Shown: positions 7,666-14,409 of the stretch, piece after piece
Numbering within the stretch: the stretch's first letter is position 1
How the letters are laid out: every line of letters begins with the position of its first letter
NCBI RefSeq assembly: GCF_027924905.1
Contig: NZ_AP027055.1
Span: forward strand, 1,984,001-2,048,000
Length of the DNA stretch: 64,000 nucleotides
Source of the DNA: Limnohabitans sp. INBF002
GTDB taxonomy: Bacteria; Pseudomonadota; Gammaproteobacteria; Burkholderiales; Burkholderiaceae_C
Reading direction: 5' to 3'
Notes under the pieces: model-generated
Told to the model about the DNA's origin: nothing
Database searches by the model: none
Seen by the model: the letters and a program-made list of their open reading frames with translations, nothing else
Translations under genes and position numbers: made by a program

Positions 7666-8742
7666 ATGAATCTCACTGCACTGAATGAAACTTATGGCGA
7701 GTCCGCTGTCTTGGCCGTTGGTGGCTGGGTCATTGGTCTGTTGTTTGGATTTTTTGCCCAGCGCTCTAAGTTTTGCCTGCGTGCAGCCGTTGTGGAGTTT
7801 TGGCACCATCAATTTGGGGAAAAACTTTCAGTTTGGTTGCTCACATTTTCTGCAGCAGTCATTGCCATTCAAAGCCTCATTGTGTTGGGCGACCTCGACG
7901 TCAGCACCGCACGTCAGCTGGCCACGCGGGGCAGCTTGTCCGGCGCACTGATTGGCGGCTTGCTGTTTGGTGCAGGCATGATCATGACCCGCGGGTGTGC
8001 CAGCCGCTTGCTCATTTTGTCAGCCAACGGCAATTTACGTGCTTTGCTATCGGGCTTGGTGTTTGCCGTTACTGCGCAATCGGCTTTGTCAGGAGCGCTC
8101 TCGCCTCTGCGCCAAGAGATCACCAACCTTTGGACGGTGGAAGGCGGCAGCAGCCGTGACCTGTTGGCCATGTTGGGTCTGAGCCACACCACAGGATTGG
8201 TCATTGGATGCGTTTGGCTGTTGGCTGCGTTGTACTTCACCACACGCACCACGCAACGTGCATGGATGTGGATAGGCGGCATTGGCACCGGCTTGAGCGT
8301 GGCGATGGCTTGGTGGTTTTCGTACAGCGTGTCTAAAGCCTCGTTCGAAGTGGTGCACATCCAAGGCATCACCTTCAGCGGCCCGTCAGCCGAGTGGCTC
8401 ATGCGCGTGCTGGCCCCCAATCCACCAGCCATTGGTTTTGACTTTGGTTTGTTGCCTGGTGTTTTCCTGGGCTCGTTCTTTGCTGCGTGGCTAGGCAAGG
8501 AACTCAAATTGGAAGGGTTCAAAGACGGCTATGCCATGCGCCGCTACATCGTGGGCGCCATCTTCATGGGATTTGGTGCCATGCTGGCAGGCGGTTGTGC
8601 GGTAGGTGCCGGCGTGACAGGCGGGGCTATTTTTGCGCTGACAGCTTGGCTTGCTTTGATTGGCATGTGGATGGGCGCAGGCTTGGTCGACCGATGGATG
8701 GATCCGCCACCCGTGAGTGCCCCCACGTTGATGCAACCTTGA
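7666..8742 (+). CDS. YeeE/YedE-family thiosulfate transporter (TsuA-like)
   Basis: The 358-aa integral membrane protein has about nine to ten hydrophobic segments and the conserved cysteine motifs of the sulfur-transport YeeE/YedE family: FAQRSKFCLRAA near residue 35, MTRGCASR near 110 and GGCAVGAGVTGG near 310. In TsuA such cysteines relay thiosulfate through the inner membrane. In this context it probably brings thiosulfate into the cytoplasm or handles persulfide sulfur alongside periplasmic Sox oxidation. It is divergent from soxH and followed by a long hairpin. The exact substrate is inferred from the family. Confidence 0.82.
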   Translation: MNLTALNETYGESAVLAVGGWVIGLLFGFFAQRSKFCLRAAVVEFWHHQFGEKLSVWLLTFSAAVIAIQSLIVLGDLDVSTARQLATRGSLSGALIGGLLFGAGMIMTRGCASRLLILSANGNLRALLSGLVFAVTAQSALSGALSPLRQEITNLWTVEGGSSRDLLAMLGLSHTTGLVIGCVWLLAALYFTTRTTQRAWMWIGGIGTGLSVAMAWWFSYSVSKASFEVVHIQGITFSGPSAEWLMRVLAPNPPAIGFDFGLLPGVFLGSFFAAWLGKELKLEGFKDGYAMRRYIVGAIFMGFGAMLAGGCAVGAGVTGGAIFALTAWLALIGMWMGAGLVDRWMDPPPVSAPTLMQP

Positions 8743-8789
8743 GCGGCGACGGTTGATTCGAATTCTTACGTTATAGTTTTCAACGTACT

Positions 8790-8832
8790 GGCAAACGCCA
8801 TCACTGGGTTAACCCCGTGATGGCGTTTTGCC
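8790..8832. terminator. 43-bp near-perfect palindrome between the transporter and soxE
   Basis: GGCAAACGCCATCAC pairs with GTGATGGCGTTTTGCC with one bulged T, and the interior GGGTTAACCC is itself a palindrome, so the whole element folds into about 20 bp with one mismatch. It follows the transporter stop by 47 bp. It has no clear U-tract outside the stem, so it may be a terminator, an mRNA-stabilising end or a protein-binding palindrome. Confidence 0.6.
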
Positions 8833-8886
8833 ATTCTCGATATATTACTGATCACTGATTAATTAAATCTGCTCAACGAGGTTTCG

Positions 8887-9222
8887 ATGAAAACAACATC
8901 TCCCCACTTGTTGCGTTTGCTGGCCGCCGCAGCCTTGATGCTGGGTGCCAACGTCGCATCACACGCCCAAGACAAAGCCACGCAATTGCACAACCGCGCC
9001 ACCGCTGCCATGTGTGCCAACTGCCATGGCACCGAAGGCCGCACCATCGAAGGCTCAGCTATTCCCTCGTTGGCTGGCATGCCCAAAGACTACATGGTGT
9101 TGCAAATGAAAGCCTTCAAAGAAGGTACACGTCCTGCCACAGTGATGCACCAAATCACCAAAGGCCTGACCGATGCCCAAATCGACACCATCGCCAATTA
9201 CTACGCTGCTACCAAGCGCTGA
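8887..9222 (+). CDS. soxE: SoxE-like cytochrome c, heme subunit of flavocytochrome c sulfide dehydrogenase
   Basis: The 111-aa periplasmic protein has a Sec signal (ends ASHAQ) and one class-I type heme motif CANCH (C43, C46, H47), with a possible distal methionine in YMVLQM. It is the expected electron acceptor for the flavoprotein encoded 13 bp downstream. Together SoxEF (FccAB-like) oxidise sulfide to sulfane sulfur and pass electrons to the respiratory chain. Pairing with soxF gives the call; the cytochrome alone could not be distinguished from other small c-type cytochromes. Confidence 0.85.
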   Translation: MKTTSPHLLRLLAAAALMLGANVASHAQDKATQLHNRATAAMCANCHGTEGRTIEGSAIPSLAGMPKDYMVLQMKAFKEGTRPATVMHQITKGLTDAQIDTIANYYAATKR

Positions 9223-9235
9223 TCAAGGATTCATC

Positions 9236-10522
9236 ATGAAACGTCGCAGTTTTGTTCAAGCCTCTATGGCTCTTGGTTCTTTTGGCGCACTCGGCAGCAT
9301 GGTCGGTTGCGCATCGGTGGGCCGCGTGCCCGAAAAAGCACGCGTGGTCGTGGTGGGTGGCGGCTATGGTGGCGCAACTGCTGCTAAGTACGTGCGCATG
9401 TTGTCGAACTACCAAATCGATGTGACCTTGATTGAGCCGAATGGTGAGTTCGTGTCCTGCCCGATCTCCAACTTGGTGATTGGCGGCAGCAAGACCATGG
9501 CAGACATCACCACGCCCTACGACAAGCTCTCTGGCAAGCATGGTGTCAACATCGTGCGGGACTACGTTGCCAGTGTCGACCCCGTCAAAAAGACGGTGAC
9601 TTTGGCCAGTGGCCCCAGCATTCGCTACGACAAGCTGGTCATGTCGCCTGGCATTGACTTGATGTTCAACACCATCGAAGGTTTGAAAGAAGCCAACGCC
9701 TCCGGTCAAATTTTGCAAGCTTGGAAAGGTGGCCCGGAAACTTTGGCCCTGCGCAAACAACTTGAGTCAATGGACGATGGCGGCGTGTATGCCATCACCA
9801 TTCCAGAAGCGCCCTACCGCTGCCCACCCGGCCCGTACGAACGAGCCAGCCAAGTGGCACATTACTTCAAGCAACACAAGCCCAAGTCAAAAGTGCTGAT
9901 CTTGGATGCCAACCAAGACGTGACCTCCAAAGGTCCGTTGTTCAAGAAGTTCTGGGCAGACAACTACAAAGGCATCTTGGAATACATGCCGCAGCACAAA
10001 GTCGTGGCAGTTGACGCCAAGACCAACACCTTAAAGTTTGATGTGCAAAACGATGTCAAAGCCAACGTGCTCAACGTGTTACCTGCCATGCGCGCGGGTG
10101 GCATTGCCGTGCAGTCGAGCTTGGCCAACGTCAACGCACGTTGGTGCGGCGTGCACTACCAAACCTTTGAGTCCACACAAGCCAAAGACATTCACGTCAT
10201 TGGTGACTCCATCATGCTGGCCCCGCTCATGCCCAAGTCGGGTCACATGGCCAACTCGCACGGCAAGGTCACAGCAGCCGCCATCGTGGCGCAGTTGTCG
10301 GATATGCCGGTCAACCCAGCACCATTCCTCAGCAACACTTGCTACAGCTTTGTGAACGACAAGTTGGTGGTGCACGTAGCATCGGTTCACCAATACGATG
10401 CCAAAGACAAAACCTACAAAACCGTGCCAGGCTCGGGCGGTGTGTCTGCAGCGCCTAACGAACTGGAAGGCATTTACGCGTGGAATTGGGCCCAAAACAT
10501 CTGGGCCGACAGCTTGATGTGA
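9236..10522 (+). CDS. soxF: SoxF/FccB flavoprotein subunit of sulfide dehydrogenase
   Basis: The 428-aa protein starts with a Tat signal (MKRRSFVQAS), then an FAD-binding dinucleotide fold VVVVGGGYGGATAAK. FVSCPISN resembles the site where FccB attaches flavin through a cysteine. Further cysteines in YRCPPGPYE, RWCGVHY and NTCYSF provide candidates for the redox-active disulfide that binds sulfide. Start ATG 9236 has AAGGA 7 nt upstream; a longer frame from 9173 overlaps soxE and has no signal in register. It is in an operon with soxE and the following DsrE-like gene (11-bp gap). Confidence 0.92.
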   Translation: MKRRSFVQASMALGSFGALGSMVGCASVGRVPEKARVVVVGGGYGGATAAKYVRMLSNYQIDVTLIEPNGEFVSCPISNLVIGGSKTMADITTPYDKLSGKHGVNIVRDYVASVDPVKKTVTLASGPSIRYDKLVMSPGIDLMFNTIEGLKEANASGQILQAWKGGPETLALRKQLESMDDGGVYAITIPEAPYRCPPGPYERASQVAHYFKQHKPKSKVLILDANQDVTSKGPLFKKFWADNYKGILEYMPQHKVVAVDAKTNTLKFDVQNDVKANVLNVLPAMRAGGIAVQSSLANVNARWCGVHYQTFESTQAKDIHVIGDSIMLAPLMPKSGHMANSHGKVTAAAIVAQLSDMPVNPAPFLSNTCYSFVNDKLVVHVASVHQYDAKDKTYKTVPGSGGVSAAPNELEGIYAWNWAQNIWADSLM

Positions 10523-10533
10523 GAATGCACCAC

Positions 10534-10965
10534 ATGAATATCTTCAAATATATTTCACACGCTCTCACAGCCTTGTTGCTGGCATTGAGTTTCAGCTCGG
10601 TACAAGCACAAGACATCAAGGTGGTCTACCACGTCAACACAGGCGTGGACACCGCAGCGGCCATCTTGGGCAACGTACGCAATCACTTGAATGCAGATCC
10701 AACAGCCAAAATTGTGGTGGTCACTCATGGCCCTGGCATCGACTTTTTGTTGGATGGCGCCAAAGACAACAAAGGCCGCGAGTTCAGCGGCATGGTGTCT
10801 GACTTGTCTGGCAAAGGTGTGCAGTTTCGCGTGTGTAACAACACGCTGACCTCGCGCAACATCGATGCCAACAAAGTGTCCATGGATGCCAAGATCGTGC
10901 CATCAGGCGTGGCCGAAGTGGCGCGCTTGCAAGCCAAAGAAGGTCATGTGTATCTCAAGCCATAA
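10534..10965 (+). CDS. Secreted DsrE-like protein of the sulfide-oxidation operon
   Basis: The 143-aa protein has a Sec signal (ends SSVQAQ) and a DsrE/DsrF-like alpha/beta fold: KVVYHVN, AAAILGNVRNHL, KIVVVTHGPGIDFLL and a late FRVCNNTL with a cysteine near residue 107. Cytoplasmic DsrE/TusD relatives carry persulfide sulfur on a cysteine; a periplasmic member after soxEF could accept sulfane sulfur from sulfide oxidation, which is inference. It lies 11 bp after soxF and is followed by a strong terminator. An upstream ATG at 10525 is an alternative start adding three residues. Confidence 0.75.
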   Translation: MNIFKYISHALTALLLALSFSSVQAQDIKVVYHVNTGVDTAAAILGNVRNHLNADPTAKIVVVTHGPGIDFLLDGAKDNKGREFSGMVSDLSGKGVQFRVCNNTLTSRNIDANKVSMDAKIVPSGVAEVARLQAKEGHVYLKP

Positions 10966-10983: not shown

Positions 10984-11011
10984 AAAAGGGCCGCAATTGC
11001 GGCCCTTTTTT
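10984..11011 (+). terminator. Intrinsic terminator after the soxEF-dsrE operon
   Basis: AAAAGGGCCGC-AATT-GCGGCCCTTTTTT forms an 8-bp GC-rich stem with flanking A and T runs, 18 bp after the DsrE-like stop codon. It closes the plus-strand sulfide-oxidation operon. Confidence 0.9.
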
Positions 11012-11023
11012 ATTTCATCAACT

Positions 11024-11086
11024 GGCGTACGGTCTTGCCCGTACGTGGCTTATCGAATTTTCAAATACTGTGATTTTTTCTACAGT
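11024..11086 (+). promoter_or_regulatory. Operator/promoter module, copy 1 (for the 59-aa membrane protein)
   Basis: The module contains the dyad CGTACGG-N6-CCGTACG (11026-11045), then TGGCTTATCGAATTTTCAAA and, further on, TTTCTACAGT. TTTTCA (11058-11063) and TACAGT (11081-11086) are spaced by 17 bp and fit a sigma-70 promoter; the dyad centre is then near -58, a class-I activator position. The first 42 bp match copy 2 (11739-11780, opposite strand) at 40 positions. The best candidate binder is the FixJ-type regulator encoded nearby, or the MarR-like protein. Confidence 0.75.
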
Positions 11087-11135
11087 GAGGTATCTGCAAA
11101 CCCGTGCATTTGTTCCAAGCCAAAGAAAGCCTCAC

Positions 11136-11315
11136 ATGACACCCGTTGTTACACAAGTTCTGCTCAAGAAAAAGAAGCAGCAAACGCTGGCACGTTCAAT
11201 GGCCACCAAAGAAGATCCAACCAGCGAGCAACAGATGTACTACAAAGATGTGGCTGGGTTTTTTATCTTCTTGCTGGTCGTCTTCACCGTGTTGATGATT
11301 TCGCTTTATGCCTGA
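11136..11315 (+). CDS. Small single-span membrane protein, function unknown
   Basis: The 59-aa protein has a basic, soluble N-terminal half (LLKKKKQQ) and one C-terminal transmembrane helix (about residues 37-57, GFFIFLLVVFTVLMISLY). The start ATG 11136 is chosen because it gives a compact protein; the ribosome binding site is weak (AAAGAAAG). It is driven by promoter module copy 1 and converges on the MarR-like gene, 11 bp away. I do not recognise a family. It could be a small subunit or modulator of a membrane complex controlled by the adjacent two-component system. Confidence 0.6.
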   Translation: MTPVVTQVLLKKKKQQTLARSMATKEDPTSEQQMYYKDVAGFFIFLLVVFTVLMISLYA

Positions 11316-11326
11316 TGCGAGGTCAA

Positions 11327-11710
11327 TCAACCCACGGTTGATGCAGGCATCAGAGTTCCCAAGTATTCAAAATAGGCAAGGGCCTTCTCTGCGGGCTCAA
11401 TAAATTTCACACGACGGTCAACCGTGTCGACGACCACATGAATCAATTCAGCATCTCGCAAGTTGTCAATTTTTCGGCTCACCGCAGATGGGCTGAGGAA
11501 CAGTTCGTCACGCAACTCCAAGGCCTGCATCATGGATAAAGGCTGCTGCATCGCATATCGAACCGCAATGATTTCAAGCAGTCTTTGCTCATCGGGTGGA
11601 ATCAACAAAGGTTTTTGATGCGATTGACGGGCCTTGTGTACGGCCAACAAAAAATCTAAATATTTGAGTTTTACAGGCGCAAGCGTTGCACCTTGTTGCT
11701 GATCAGTCAT
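11327..11710 (-). CDS. MarR-like winged-helix transcriptional regulator
   Basis: The 127-aa protein has a winged helix-turn-helix near residues 48-100: PLSMMQALELRDELFLSPSAVSRKIDNLRDAELI, followed by a wing with VVDTVDRRVKFIEPAEKAL, as in MarR-type proteins. ATG 11710 lies just downstream of a TACAGT -10 element (11718-11723), so its transcript may be nearly leaderless. It is preceded by promoter module copy 2, the inverted duplicate of the one driving the facing 59-aa gene, so the two are likely co-regulated. The ligand is unknown. A longer frame from 11737 would start upstream of the predicted transcript start. Confidence 0.7.
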   Translation of the reverse strand: MTDQQQGATLAPVKLKYLDFLLAVHKARQSHQKPLLIPPDEQRLLEIIAVRYAMQQPLSMMQALELRDELFLSPSAVSRKIDNLRDAELIHVVVDTVDRRVKFIEPAEKALAYFEYLGTLMPASTVG

Positions 11711-11717
11711 AGTGATG

Positions 11718-11780
11718 ACTGTAGAAACAATTCGCAATTTTGAAAATTCGATAAGCCACGTACGGGCTAGGCCGTACGCC
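11718..11780 (-). promoter_or_regulatory. Operator/promoter module, copy 2 (for the MarR-like gene)
   Basis: On the minus strand this repeats copy 1: CGTACGG-N6-CCGTACG (11759-11778), TGGCTTATCGAATTTTCAAA, a diverged 12-base spacer, and TTTCTACAGT ending at 11718. Spacing between dyad, -35-like TTTTCA and -10 TACAGT is identical to copy 1, which argues for functional conservation rather than chance. Confidence 0.75.
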
Positions 11781-11788
11781 CAAAAGAA

Positions 11789-12382
11789 TTAATGGATGCG
11801 TTCAATGCTCATGCGAACCAGCTCGGCCAAGGTCTTGGCACCCAGCTTCTCCATCACACGCCCTTTATGCACTTCCACCGTGCGTGGGCTGATGCCCAGC
11901 AAAGCGCCAGCCTCGCGATGTGTCATGCCTTGAGCGATGGCTGTCATCACTTCACGCTCACGGGGTGTCAACGTCTCAAACGACTGGGTTCGAACGGTAG
12001 AAACGGCGTTCGATTTGAGCCGCTCAAACGCACGCTCAATGGCGTCAAGCAATATCGACATGACGACCGGTTTTTCAAGAAAGTCGACCGCTTGGTTCAA
12101 AAAGGCGCGACGCATCACGTCCACATCAGCAAAGGCCGTGAGGAAAATCACTTCTATAGGGTGATGCAGACTGCCTAACTTCTCTTGCAAATCAAGCCCG
12201 CTCATGCCGGCCATGTTGAGGTCCAATACCAAACAGCAAGGCTTATCGGGCGCAGCGCTTAGAAAAGCCTCGCTGCTTTCATAGGTGCGGCAATCAAACC
12301 CTTTGAGACCCAGCATGATGGACAAGGAATCACGCACAGACGCATCGTCGTCCACGATACAAACCAAACGGCTCTCATTCAT
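11789..12382 (-). CDS. FixJ/NarL-type response regulator
   Basis: The 197-aa protein has a receiver domain (residues 5-120; acidic pocket DDD at 11-13, phosphoacceptor D54 in LVLDLNM, conserved T/K positions in FLTAFAD and FLEKPV) and a C-terminal LuxR-type helix-turn-helix (TPREREVMTAIAQGMTHREAGALLGISPRTVEVHK). ATG 12382 overlaps the end of the sensor kinase gene by 8 bp, so they form a coupled pair. The dyad CGTACGG-N6-CCGTACG, present just downstream of its gene and before the 59-aa gene, is a plausible target. The C-terminus lies 8 bp from copy 2 of that module. Confidence 0.9.
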   Translation of the reverse strand: MNESRLVCIVDDDASVRDSLSIMLGLKGFDCRTYESSEAFLSAAPDKPCCLVLDLNMAGMSGLDLQEKLGSLHHPIEVIFLTAFADVDVMRRAFLNQAVDFLEKPVVMSILLDAIERAFERLKSNAVSTVRTQSFETLTPREREVMTAIAQGMTHREAGALLGISPRTVEVHKGRVMEKLGAKTLAELVRMSIERIH

Positions 12383-13952
12383 CGACGCAATCTCCAAGGG
12401 GAAGAAGGATTTGAAAACATTTCTCAGGGTGCGCTTGATAACGCAACACGCCCCCGTTATTTTCAACCAGTGAGCGACTCACTGACAAACCCAACCCCAA
12501 GCCATCTTTTTTCTTGGAATAAAAGGGCCTGAACACTTGATCGGCCGCATCTGCATCTAGCAACGTGCCTTGGTCGATCACGCGGATGCTCAGCATCTGC
12601 TTTTCATCTGCGTTGACGCGAACCGTCACTTGAGCCCCTGAAGGTGACGCATCAATGGCATTTTTTAACAAGTTACCCAAGGCGGTGCTGATCTGCACAC
12701 GGTCCACCAAGACATGATCTTCATGGTGTGTGTAGACCGTGACCAAGGCCACATCTGCCTTGGCGGCCTTGTGTGCAAAACGCGCCACGCATTCATCTAC
12801 CAAATGCGTGACCGAGGTGTCTTGCAAAGACGATGCACCTGAAATGAAATAACTGCGCAAGCCCCGCACAATATCTGTCGCACGCAAGGCCTCATTCACC
12901 ACATTGCGCAGCATGGTGACGAGCTGCGTTTGTTGTGCATCTGTCATTTTTTCTTTTTGCAGTTCGGTCAGCATGAGTGCCGATTCCGCATAAGCGCTCA
13001 AAGCACTCATGGGCTGATGCAGCTCGTGCGCCAGCGACCCAGCCAATTCACCCGCAGCCACCAGCTGCAAGCTGTCACGCAAGCGCTCTTCCGTGCGCAA
13101 ACGTTCATCCACCACCGTTCCAATGATGAGTCCCGTCAACGACAAACTGAGCATGACAATTTGCATGTCCATCAAATCAGCAGGCTGCACCCCCACTCGC
13201 GTGGCAGAAAACACCAAAGGCAACTGAATGAGCGCTGCAACCAACGTGGCACCTGGCAGCGAATACGTGGCCGCGATCAAGCCCAACACAAAGAACAGCG
13301 AGAAAAAATATTTCATCTGGTCTTCAATGGGCAATGAAAAAATCAGCCATAAACAGATGGCTAAGCCCAACATCAGAACCCAAAACAAAACACTGCGAAA
13401 CATCTGTAGGTATTGCACATGGCGCCGCTTGTCAGCCGCGACAAAAAACAACGGCAGCAGCACCATCAAACCCAACAAATCGCCGATAAAGAAACGGTGC
13501 ACAGCGCCTAAGAAGTCATGCGTAGACAGCACGCCAATCCAAGTCTGCGTGCCCACATAGGCCATGGCTGTAAACAAAGCGCCGCAAAGAATTACCGCAC
13601 CCAGCACGAAAACGTCATGCCGATTGCGTAGCGCGGTGCGCCCCGCCAAAGTCCACCGCAAAGTCAAAGCAATCGCTGCATAGCAAGTCACAAGTACCGC
13701 GTTGCCCAAGACCACGGCAGGTGACAAAAACAAAGTGCCACGAACCAAACTGTCTGACAGGCCCAACGTGAGATACACCCATGTCATCCATGAGTTGCCA
13801 GCCCAAAAAAGAAACAACACCTCGAGCGCCGCAGGAGGATTCCAGGGCGTGATGTTCAGGTCACCAATGGGGTAGATGTAGCTAAGCTTGTCGACGGCAA
13901 AGAACAAGCATGAAAAAACCAGCGCGATGGCGATTTTTTTGAGGTTCAGCAT
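12375..13952 (-). CDS. Membrane sensor histidine kinase with MASE1-like sensor domain
   Basis: The 525-aa protein has about eight hydrophobic segments in residues 1-280, resembling the MASE1 integral membrane sensor (WNPPAALEVLFLFWAG, HRFFIGDLLGLMVLLPLF). It then has a short coiled coil, a HisKA domain with phospho-acceptor H309 in LAHELHQP, and an HATPase_c domain with N-box NLLKNAIDA and G-box GLGLGLSVSRSL. No PAS domain is seen, so the signal is probably sensed in or through the membrane. ATG 13952 is 7 bp after the ArsR-type gene; longer frames run into that gene. It is co-transcribed with the response regulator. Confidence 0.9.
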   Translation of the reverse strand: MLNLKKIAIALVFSCLFFAVDKLSYIYPIGDLNITPWNPPAALEVLFLFWAGNSWMTWVYLTLGLSDSLVRGTLFLSPAVVLGNAVLVTCYAAIALTLRWTLAGRTALRNRHDVFVLGAVILCGALFTAMAYVGTQTWIGVLSTHDFLGAVHRFFIGDLLGLMVLLPLFFVAADKRRHVQYLQMFRSVLFWVLMLGLAICLWLIFSLPIEDQMKYFFSLFFVLGLIAATYSLPGATLVAALIQLPLVFSATRVGVQPADLMDMQIVMLSLSLTGLIIGTVVDERLRTEERLRDSLQLVAAGELAGSLAHELHQPMSALSAYAESALMLTELQKEKMTDAQQTQLVTMLRNVVNEALRATDIVRGLRSYFISGASSLQDTSVTHLVDECVARFAHKAAKADVALVTVYTHHEDHVLVDRVQISTALGNLLKNAIDASPSGAQVTVRVNADEKQMLSIRVIDQGTLLDADAADQVFRPFYSKKKDGLGLGLSVSRSLVENNGGVLRYQAHPEKCFQILLPLGDCVDE

Positions 13953-13959
13953 CCAATGT

Positions 13960-14409
13960 TTAATGCGACAAATCGCTATCAATGGCGATTTGAGTACACA
14001 CCGCACGGCACAGCGTGACGACGCGCTCATTGATGATGCGGTAATAGATTTGCACGCCTTCACGGCGACGACCCAAAATTTTGGCTTTGAACAAGGTGTT
14101 CAAGTGCTGCGACATATTGGGTTGGGTGGTGTCGATTTCTTCAAGCAACTGCCCCACGTTTTTTTCTTCGTTGCACAAGCAGTTGATGATTTTCAAACGC
14201 ATGGGCGCTGACATCACACGGAAAGTTTCGGCAGCCAAATCAAACATCACATCCAGATTTGGACTTTCAGTTGTCGTTTTTTTCGGCGTCTTGGCAGAGG
14301 TCTTCACCGTTTTGGCGACAAGCTTTTTGACCACCGGTTTTTTTACGGCCACAGGTTTGGTCGCCGTCTTTGCTTTGACGGGTGTTGGGTTTGTCTTTTT
14401 AGTAGCCAT
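13960..14409 (-). CDS. ArsR/SoxR-type repressor with lysine-rich N-terminal tail
   Basis: The 149-aa protein has an ArsR winged helix (about residues 52-130: AETFRVMSAPMRLKIINCL, TTQPNMSQHLNTLFKAKILGRRREG, YYRIINERV). Cysteines C77/C79 lie before the recognition helix and C134/C138 in the last helix, close to the positions of the persulfide-sensing cysteines of SqrR/BigR/SoxR proteins. Unusually, residues 1-48 form a Lys/Ala/Thr/Pro-rich tail like histone H1 tails. It is the first of three regulatory genes (ArsR, kinase, response regulator) and follows plsC by 15 bp. A role in controlling the sox genes is inferred from these cysteines and proximity. Confidence 0.8.
   Translation of the reverse strand: MATKKTNPTPVKAKTATKPVAVKKPVVKKLVAKTVKTSAKTPKKTTTESPNLDVMFDLAAETFRVMSAPMRLKIINCLCNEEKNVGQLLEEIDTTQPNMSQHLNTLFKAKILGRRREGVQIYYRIINERVVTLCRAVCTQIAIDSDLSH

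Follow-up and report, generated by a model that had tools for sequence, protein, structure and literature searches.

The window, the whole stretch of 64,000 nucleotides that was analysed, comes from Limnohabitans sp. INBF002 (genome G000), and at positions 11024-11780 it holds two inverted copies of what appears to be one promoter region, facing each other across a gene for a 59-aa protein (TM59) and a gene for a MarR-like regulator (Table 1). What controls these two genes, and is the repeated element peculiar to this locus? Comparison with relatives suggests that the copies, modules A and B, are dedicated promoters of the adjacent two-component system, whose regulator very probably co-activates the TM59 and MarR-like genes. 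The module is conserved more widely than the window alone shows, with a likely controller that can be assigned to it. The preliminary description had the two genes converging with 11 bp between them and a kinase/response-regulator pair next door, and the reading frames and Pfam matches agree on both points. The response regulator and kinase genes overlap, and module B lies about 11 bp past the stop codon of the former, while TM59, a small protein with a hydrophobic stretch by eye, sits behind module A. The flanks hold a sulfur-oxidation-like cluster (7666-10965: YeeE/YedE-type transporter, cytochrome c, FCSD flavoprotein, DsrE-like) and an ArsR-family gene (13960-14409) whose best equivalog, BigR, scores 60.8 of 155 bits, below the cut-off. 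Control of sulfur oxidation was considered as a role and rejected, as the stretches fetched from G066, G036, G064 and G080 showed no fccAB, DsrE-like or ArsR gene next to the system, and the module therefore does not travel with them.

Table 1 Features of the locus, in window coordinates.
Feature	Position	Strand	Remarks
Terminator-like inverted repeat and T run	10984..11009		13-nt perfect arms; after fccAB/DsrE-like genes, before module A
Promoter module A	11026..11087	+	Points at 59-aa gene; R1 48.2 bits, E 4e-14 (window, unfiltered search; R1 built partly from modules A and B themselves)
Module A parts	Palindrome core 11028-11043; CGAAT 11054-11058; -10 TACAGT 11081-11086	+	
TM59, 59 aa	11136..11315	+	By eye, a basic N-terminal region ahead of a single C-terminal hydrophobic segment
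MarR-like winged-helix regulator, 127 aa	11327..11710	-	Pfam MarR E 8.7e-5
Promoter module B	11717..11778	-	Points at MarR-like gene; R1 48.2 bits, E 4e-14 (window; R1 as for module A)
Module B parts	Palindrome core 11761-11776; CGAAT 11746-11750; -10 TACAGT 11718-11723	-	
FixJ-type response regulator	11789..12382	-	Pfam Response_reg and GerE
Membrane histidine kinase, MASE1-like sensor region	12375..13952	-	Pfam HATPase_c E 4e-19; family alignment A1

The response regulator carries Response_reg (69.7 bits) and GerE (66.3 bits) domains, both over the Pfam cut-off, and its best NCBIfam match is FixJ at 166.2 bits, under the equivalog cut-off of 255; on these matches it is FixJ-like, not FixJ. 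It is nearer to FixJ than to UhpA (166 versus 60 bits, NCBIfam), and its best PDB matches are 1yio and, in second place, the FixJ structure 5xso. The kinase matches the NCBIfam model of FixL with 128 bits over residues 296-506, the kinase part, below the equivalog cut-off of 850, and Pfam MASE1 with 28.5 bits over residues 8-284 (gathering score 29.8); no PAS was found among its Pfam matches. The third protein is called MarR-like because its 22.8 bits for Pfam MarR fall under the gathering score of 24.6. Its ATG lies 7 nt past its -10 in G000, G072 and G074 (window 11708-11723; also L063 and L064), and its mRNA is therefore probably leaderless or nearly so. Four more MarR-like relatives, 26-38% identical, are encoded elsewhere in the window genome (G000:C1:1440706, 859906, 891025 and 1657568).

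An inverted-repeat search bore out the reported match of 40 of 42 bp between 11024-11065 and the reverse complement of 11739-11780 (42 nt, 95% complementary), along with the equidistant downstream element, which falls in a further paired stretch (11073-11086 with 11718-11731; 14 nt, 93%). The dyad CGTACGG-N6-CCGTACG was likewise found in both copies, as exact matches at 11026 and 11759, and CGTACGG-N4-8-CCGTACG occurs at no third place in the 2,594,181 bases of the window genome; by arithmetic, a 64-kb stretch should contain about 0.0002 exact occurrences of 14 fixed bases. With up to three mismatches allowed, the window holds 3 matches to the dyad where 1.73 would be expected, so that in this form it is no rarer than by chance. 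The evidential weight lies in the exact copies, the rigid 63-bp module and the position of that module. The motif first described is thus real, but its six-base spacer is not free, as relatives show the palindrome TAmGGnCnnGCCCkTA. Similarly, a conserved element exists, but it is longer than the dyad, whose exact letters are lineage-specific and were found in 1 of 61 genomes, the window genome itself. For this reason the exact dyad fails as a search key, and the palindrome TAmGGsCnnGsCCkTA and then profile R1 were used after it. The palindrome alone, with up to one mismatch, was discarded as non-specific, since its backward control was at least as common in 6 of 10 genomes. Without mismatch it has a single occurrence in each of 8 of the 10 genomes; seven of these adjoin the two-component system, and the eighth (G064) lies within a coding frame, which we take to be hemE-like, without CGAAT at the fixed position.

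Aligned across relatives, the module consists of the 16-bp palindrome, 10 bp, CGAAT, 22 bp and TAnnnT, with rigid spacing over 63 bp. Seventeen sites adjoining the system align without gaps over this length with 15 invariant columns, namely T3, G6, G7, C14, C15, T17, A18, G20, C29, G30, A31 and T33, together with T56, A57 and T61 of the -10 element. These sites form alignment A3 and profile R1 and were drawn from 24 seen, leaving out near-copies (G072 A, G072 B, L075 and G174), two sites without CGAAT (L078 and G473) and L073, in which the palindrome is one base shorter. In 20 of 23 sites (L073 not counted, near-copies included), CGAAT lies exactly 10 bp past the palindrome; the exceptions are L078, G473 and G085 (CGACT). 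If transcription starts 7 bp past the -10, the palindrome is centred at -57.5 and CGAAT spans -39 to -35, in keeping with the earlier placement of the dyad near -58. The TTTTCA at 11058-11063 does lie 17 bp from TACAGT at 11081-11086, as first described, but as a -35 it is conserved in the nearest relatives only; what is conserved instead in the 63-bp alignment is CGAAT, just upstream of it. The preliminary description had also asked, as a check, whether the dyad is conserved near the system while the flanking DNA diverges, and between G000 and G074 the module is kept in this way.

In the family sample, the module (R1, E <= 0.001) was found in 7 of 399 genomes and the kinase (E <= 1e-70) in 9 of 399, with all seven module genomes among the nine (Fisher p 1e-13, both counts of 399 being taken as one sample with identical handles), and in each of the seven the module adjoins the two-component system. 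As five of the seven contributed to R1 and the other two (G408 and G174) are near-copies of training loci, the order sample is the fairer test: here R1 matched in 6 of 399 genomes, four of them neither in the training set nor close to it (G756, G047, G638 and G809), and all four matches lie beside the kinase or regulator gene. Across 87 kinase loci (1.24 Mb), 42 R1 matches were found in 31 loci at E <= 1, with matches in 22 loci at E <= 0.01. All 42, several of which are the reverse face of an already counted palindrome, are no farther than 500 bp from the kinase-regulator block, where roughly a fifth would be expected by chance in loci selected by their kinase, with a mean length of 14 kb. 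No R1 match was found at E 1 in 56 of the 87 loci. Among individual genomes, G226 and G473 have the kinase and no module at E <= 0.5, and the same-genus G064 has the kinase without a module there, with only a weak partial R1 match on another contig. The relatives comprise the genome sample and 80 named loci, of which L070, L071, L072, L075 and L077 were taken as the same contigs as the G066, G036, G080, G408 and G064 loci and are non-independent of them. Upstream of the kinase gene in L186, L187 and L110, a match on the antiporter side is accompanied by a weaker partial match facing the kinase, as if these were divergent copies, one of them for autoregulation.

In the clade of the window, it is small proteins, of membrane character as judged by eye, that are encoded behind the module. 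The module precedes TM59-like genes in G000, G072, G074, G066, G036, G080, L073 and L074, and genes for proteins of 57-74 aa, each with two hydrophobic segments, in L069, L071 (the G036 contig), L073, L074 and L075. TM59 itself gave no Pfam match at E 0.1 and no NCBIfam match at E 0.01, and its dN/dS (0.35 versus G072; 0.13 versus G074, with dS saturated) indicates a protein that is fast-evolving but under purifying selection. Of 61 same-genus genomes, six have a TM59 match, and all six belong to the seven with a close orthologue of the regulator (E <= 1e-70; Fisher p 1e-7); the TM59 model was built from those same six genomes, and the 55 match-free genomes played no part in building it.

MarR-like orthologues adjoin the system in G072, G074, G066 and G036, and four gene orders were distinguished. 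Two facing modules enclose the TM59 and MarR-like genes in G000 and G072 only; in G074, which also has two modules, the MarR-like and TM59 genes converge on a 752-aa gene lying between them; G066 has one module followed by TM59 and MarR; and in G036 one module is followed by a 74-aa gene, TM59, the kinase, the regulator and, after about 80 bp, MarR. The 752-aa frame of G074 (L064 6658-8916) appears by eye to be a fusion of OsmC-like and YcaO-like parts. A toxin-antitoxin pairing of TM59 and MarR was rejected, as TM59-like genes occur in L072-L074, where no MarR homologue was detected. Taken together, the comparison supports the existence of a module with fixed spacing, a tie between it and the system, and the linkage of the TM59 and MarR-like genes to it in four orders; the earlier reading of a compact unit that would co-activate a membrane protein and a regulator is supported in that both genes stay linked to the module throughout these orders.

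Binding to palindromes close to the promoters of their own genes is common among MarR proteins. The MarR-like protein, which had been named as an alternative binder, might therefore bind both modules and autoregulate a two-gene unit, with the two-component system a bystander. One module does lie directly upstream of the MarR-like gene, and TM59 and MarR-like genes remain linked throughout the four orders, but L069 and L072-L075, which gave no MarR homologue at E 1e-3 (L072 being a 5.4-kb contig), still have the module next to the kinase pair, and it is also kept at Ideonella- and Rubrivivax-type loci with an antiporter downstream. We consider this reading very unlikely, since the module is kept at loci without a detected MarR homologue, and the comparison points instead to binding of the palindrome by the FixJ-type regulator. 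That a mobile or invertible element left the inverted repeats behind, and that their similarity is a by-product of duplication, is extremely improbable. The 42-bp repeats around a 673-bp segment, and the 752-aa gene between the two converging genes in G074, would suit such an origin, but single 63-bp modules complete with their -10 lie beside the system in genomes without a second full-length copy, and no recombinase-like gene was recognised among the open reading frames listed between the repeats. A dedicated promoter of the two-component system thus remains our preferred reading of the module.

Among more distant relatives, it is Na+/H+ antiporter genes that follow the module. For example, a PF07399 antiporter stands behind the module in L099 (E 1.7e-187), this type often following a 104-aa protein, while other loci have Mrp/Mbh-type operons divergent from the kinase, and one L095 subunit matches MbhD and MbhE. 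The PF07399-type query matches 28 of the 80 named loci, the Mrp/Mbh query 12 and the CitMHS-family query, which we take to be NhaD-like, one, leaving 39 without a match to any of the three; six further loci have a pentapeptide-repeat neighbour in common with the CitMHS-family locus. The 104-aa type protein is present in G350 with no PF07399 match anywhere in the genome. An Ion_trans channel gene lies downstream of the regulator in L076, and an ion-channel gene similar by sequence occurs in L078, each with a one-helix protein beside the kinase pair (L076 7659-9898, L078 10511-12510); no R1 match was detected in either locus. In G085 (L174 1-3564), the module that lies past the regulator gene is followed by HlyD-family and RND-like efflux genes (the latter by eye), which are possible further cargo. 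PF07399 is present in G072 and G064 and was undetected in G074, G066, G036, G080 and G408. The window genome's own PF07399 gene was rejected as a target: it is 1.1 Mb away, and its best unfiltered R1 match is partial (7 bits, E 0.09).

A kinase tree places the ten small-protein loci in one group (SH-aLRT 96) and module-bearing rows on either side of the midpoint root, and the module is therefore probably older than its present cargo; the tree is a quick one of 90 rows without an outgroup, midpoint-rooted for drawing and with long branches flagged.

Several known systems resemble parts of this one. UhpA/UhpB/UhpC combines a MASE1-type kinase, a LuxR-type regulator and a membrane partner, as may be the case here, but UhpC is a transporter homologue and the window regulator is closer to FixJ. 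Like FixL/FixJ of the Alphaproteobacteria, the system pairs a LuxR/FixJ-type regulator with a very small regulon, although both window proteins score under the FixJ/FixL NCBIfam cut-offs, and whereas the target of FixJ is fixK, the targets here would be small membrane proteins, MarR or antiporters. The fixK promoter holds GTACGTAG (PMC13327599, excerpt), and an excerpt of PMC4999443 gives TAAGTAATTTCCCTTA as its FixJ site and places CSNAATWT at -33 and TAAG near -64. By eye, the two promoters share a plan, with a 16-bp near-palindromic site (TAAG...CCCTTA in fixK) upstream and an AAT element downstream, but letters and place differ, CSNAATWT lying at -33 there versus CGAAT at -39 here (PMC4999443, excerpt). 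The sensors also differ, FixL sensing O2 via haem (PMC4999443, excerpt) and the window kinase having a MASE1-like multi-pass sensor region. What is known is thus the FixJ-like two-component system and the type of promoter; what is unusual is the cargo.

From these observations, a mechanism can be proposed in which a signal would lead the membrane kinase to phosphorylate the FixJ-type regulator, and a phosphorylated regulator dimer would bind the 16-bp palindrome centred near -57.5. The bound regulator, together with CGAAT at about -39, would recruit sigma-70 polymerase to a promoter whose -10 is good but whose -35 is poor, such that module A would drive TM59 and module B the MarR-like regulator, and both would be made together. 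A binding site upstream of the polymerase core contacts beside a poor -35 is the logic of an activator-type promoter, and the palindrome near -57.5 is placed in this way, suggesting that both promoters are activated, not repressed. That the regulator might bind the palindrome but repress, or act in its non-phosphorylated form, so that the signal switches the genes off, seems quite unlikely in view of this placement. FixJ has been reported to repress nitrogenase expression in R. palustris, but it stimulates fixK, whose promoter contains the GTACGTAG site (both PMC13327599, excerpt). Under the activation favoured here, the signal is at a guess an ion, pH or the membrane-energy state, because relatives place Na+/H+ antiporters behind the module.

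The presence of a small membrane protein behind the system's putative promoter recalls PhoQ/PhoP, under whose control the 47-aa membrane protein MgrB is made and inhibits the kinase PhoQ (PMC8404706, excerpt). The window kinase and regulator are, however, of another class, and the likeness of TM59 to MgrB is one of description. FixT, a receiver protein, similarly acts on FixL in the FixL-FixJ system (PMC7078487, excerpt). With these precedents for action of a small protein on a kinase, contact between TM59 and its kinase may be guessed at, and TM59 is a candidate feedback or accessory partner of the kinase, though this role is less likely than not.

No description or name for this family of MASE1-like kinases and FixJ-type regulators was found in the literature, in which subscription journals were thinly covered. 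It is conceivable, if somewhat doubtful, that the family in the Burkholderiales combines a fixed module with exchanged cargo, drawn from different Na+/H+ antiporter families in many lineages and consisting of very small membrane proteins in the window's clade, with these small proteins serving as feedback partners of an ion-sensing kinase and the duplicated module adding a MarR-like second tier. The two-component family gains a precise binding-site prediction, a local regulon of very small size and, in the Na+/H+ antiporters, a functional clue. In addition, membrane proteins of 50-65 aa, of which the tested members are without a family match, are flagged as likely parts of such systems. Across the family, this looks like a promoter architecture that has been retained over a large divergence while the cargo that it regulates swaps.
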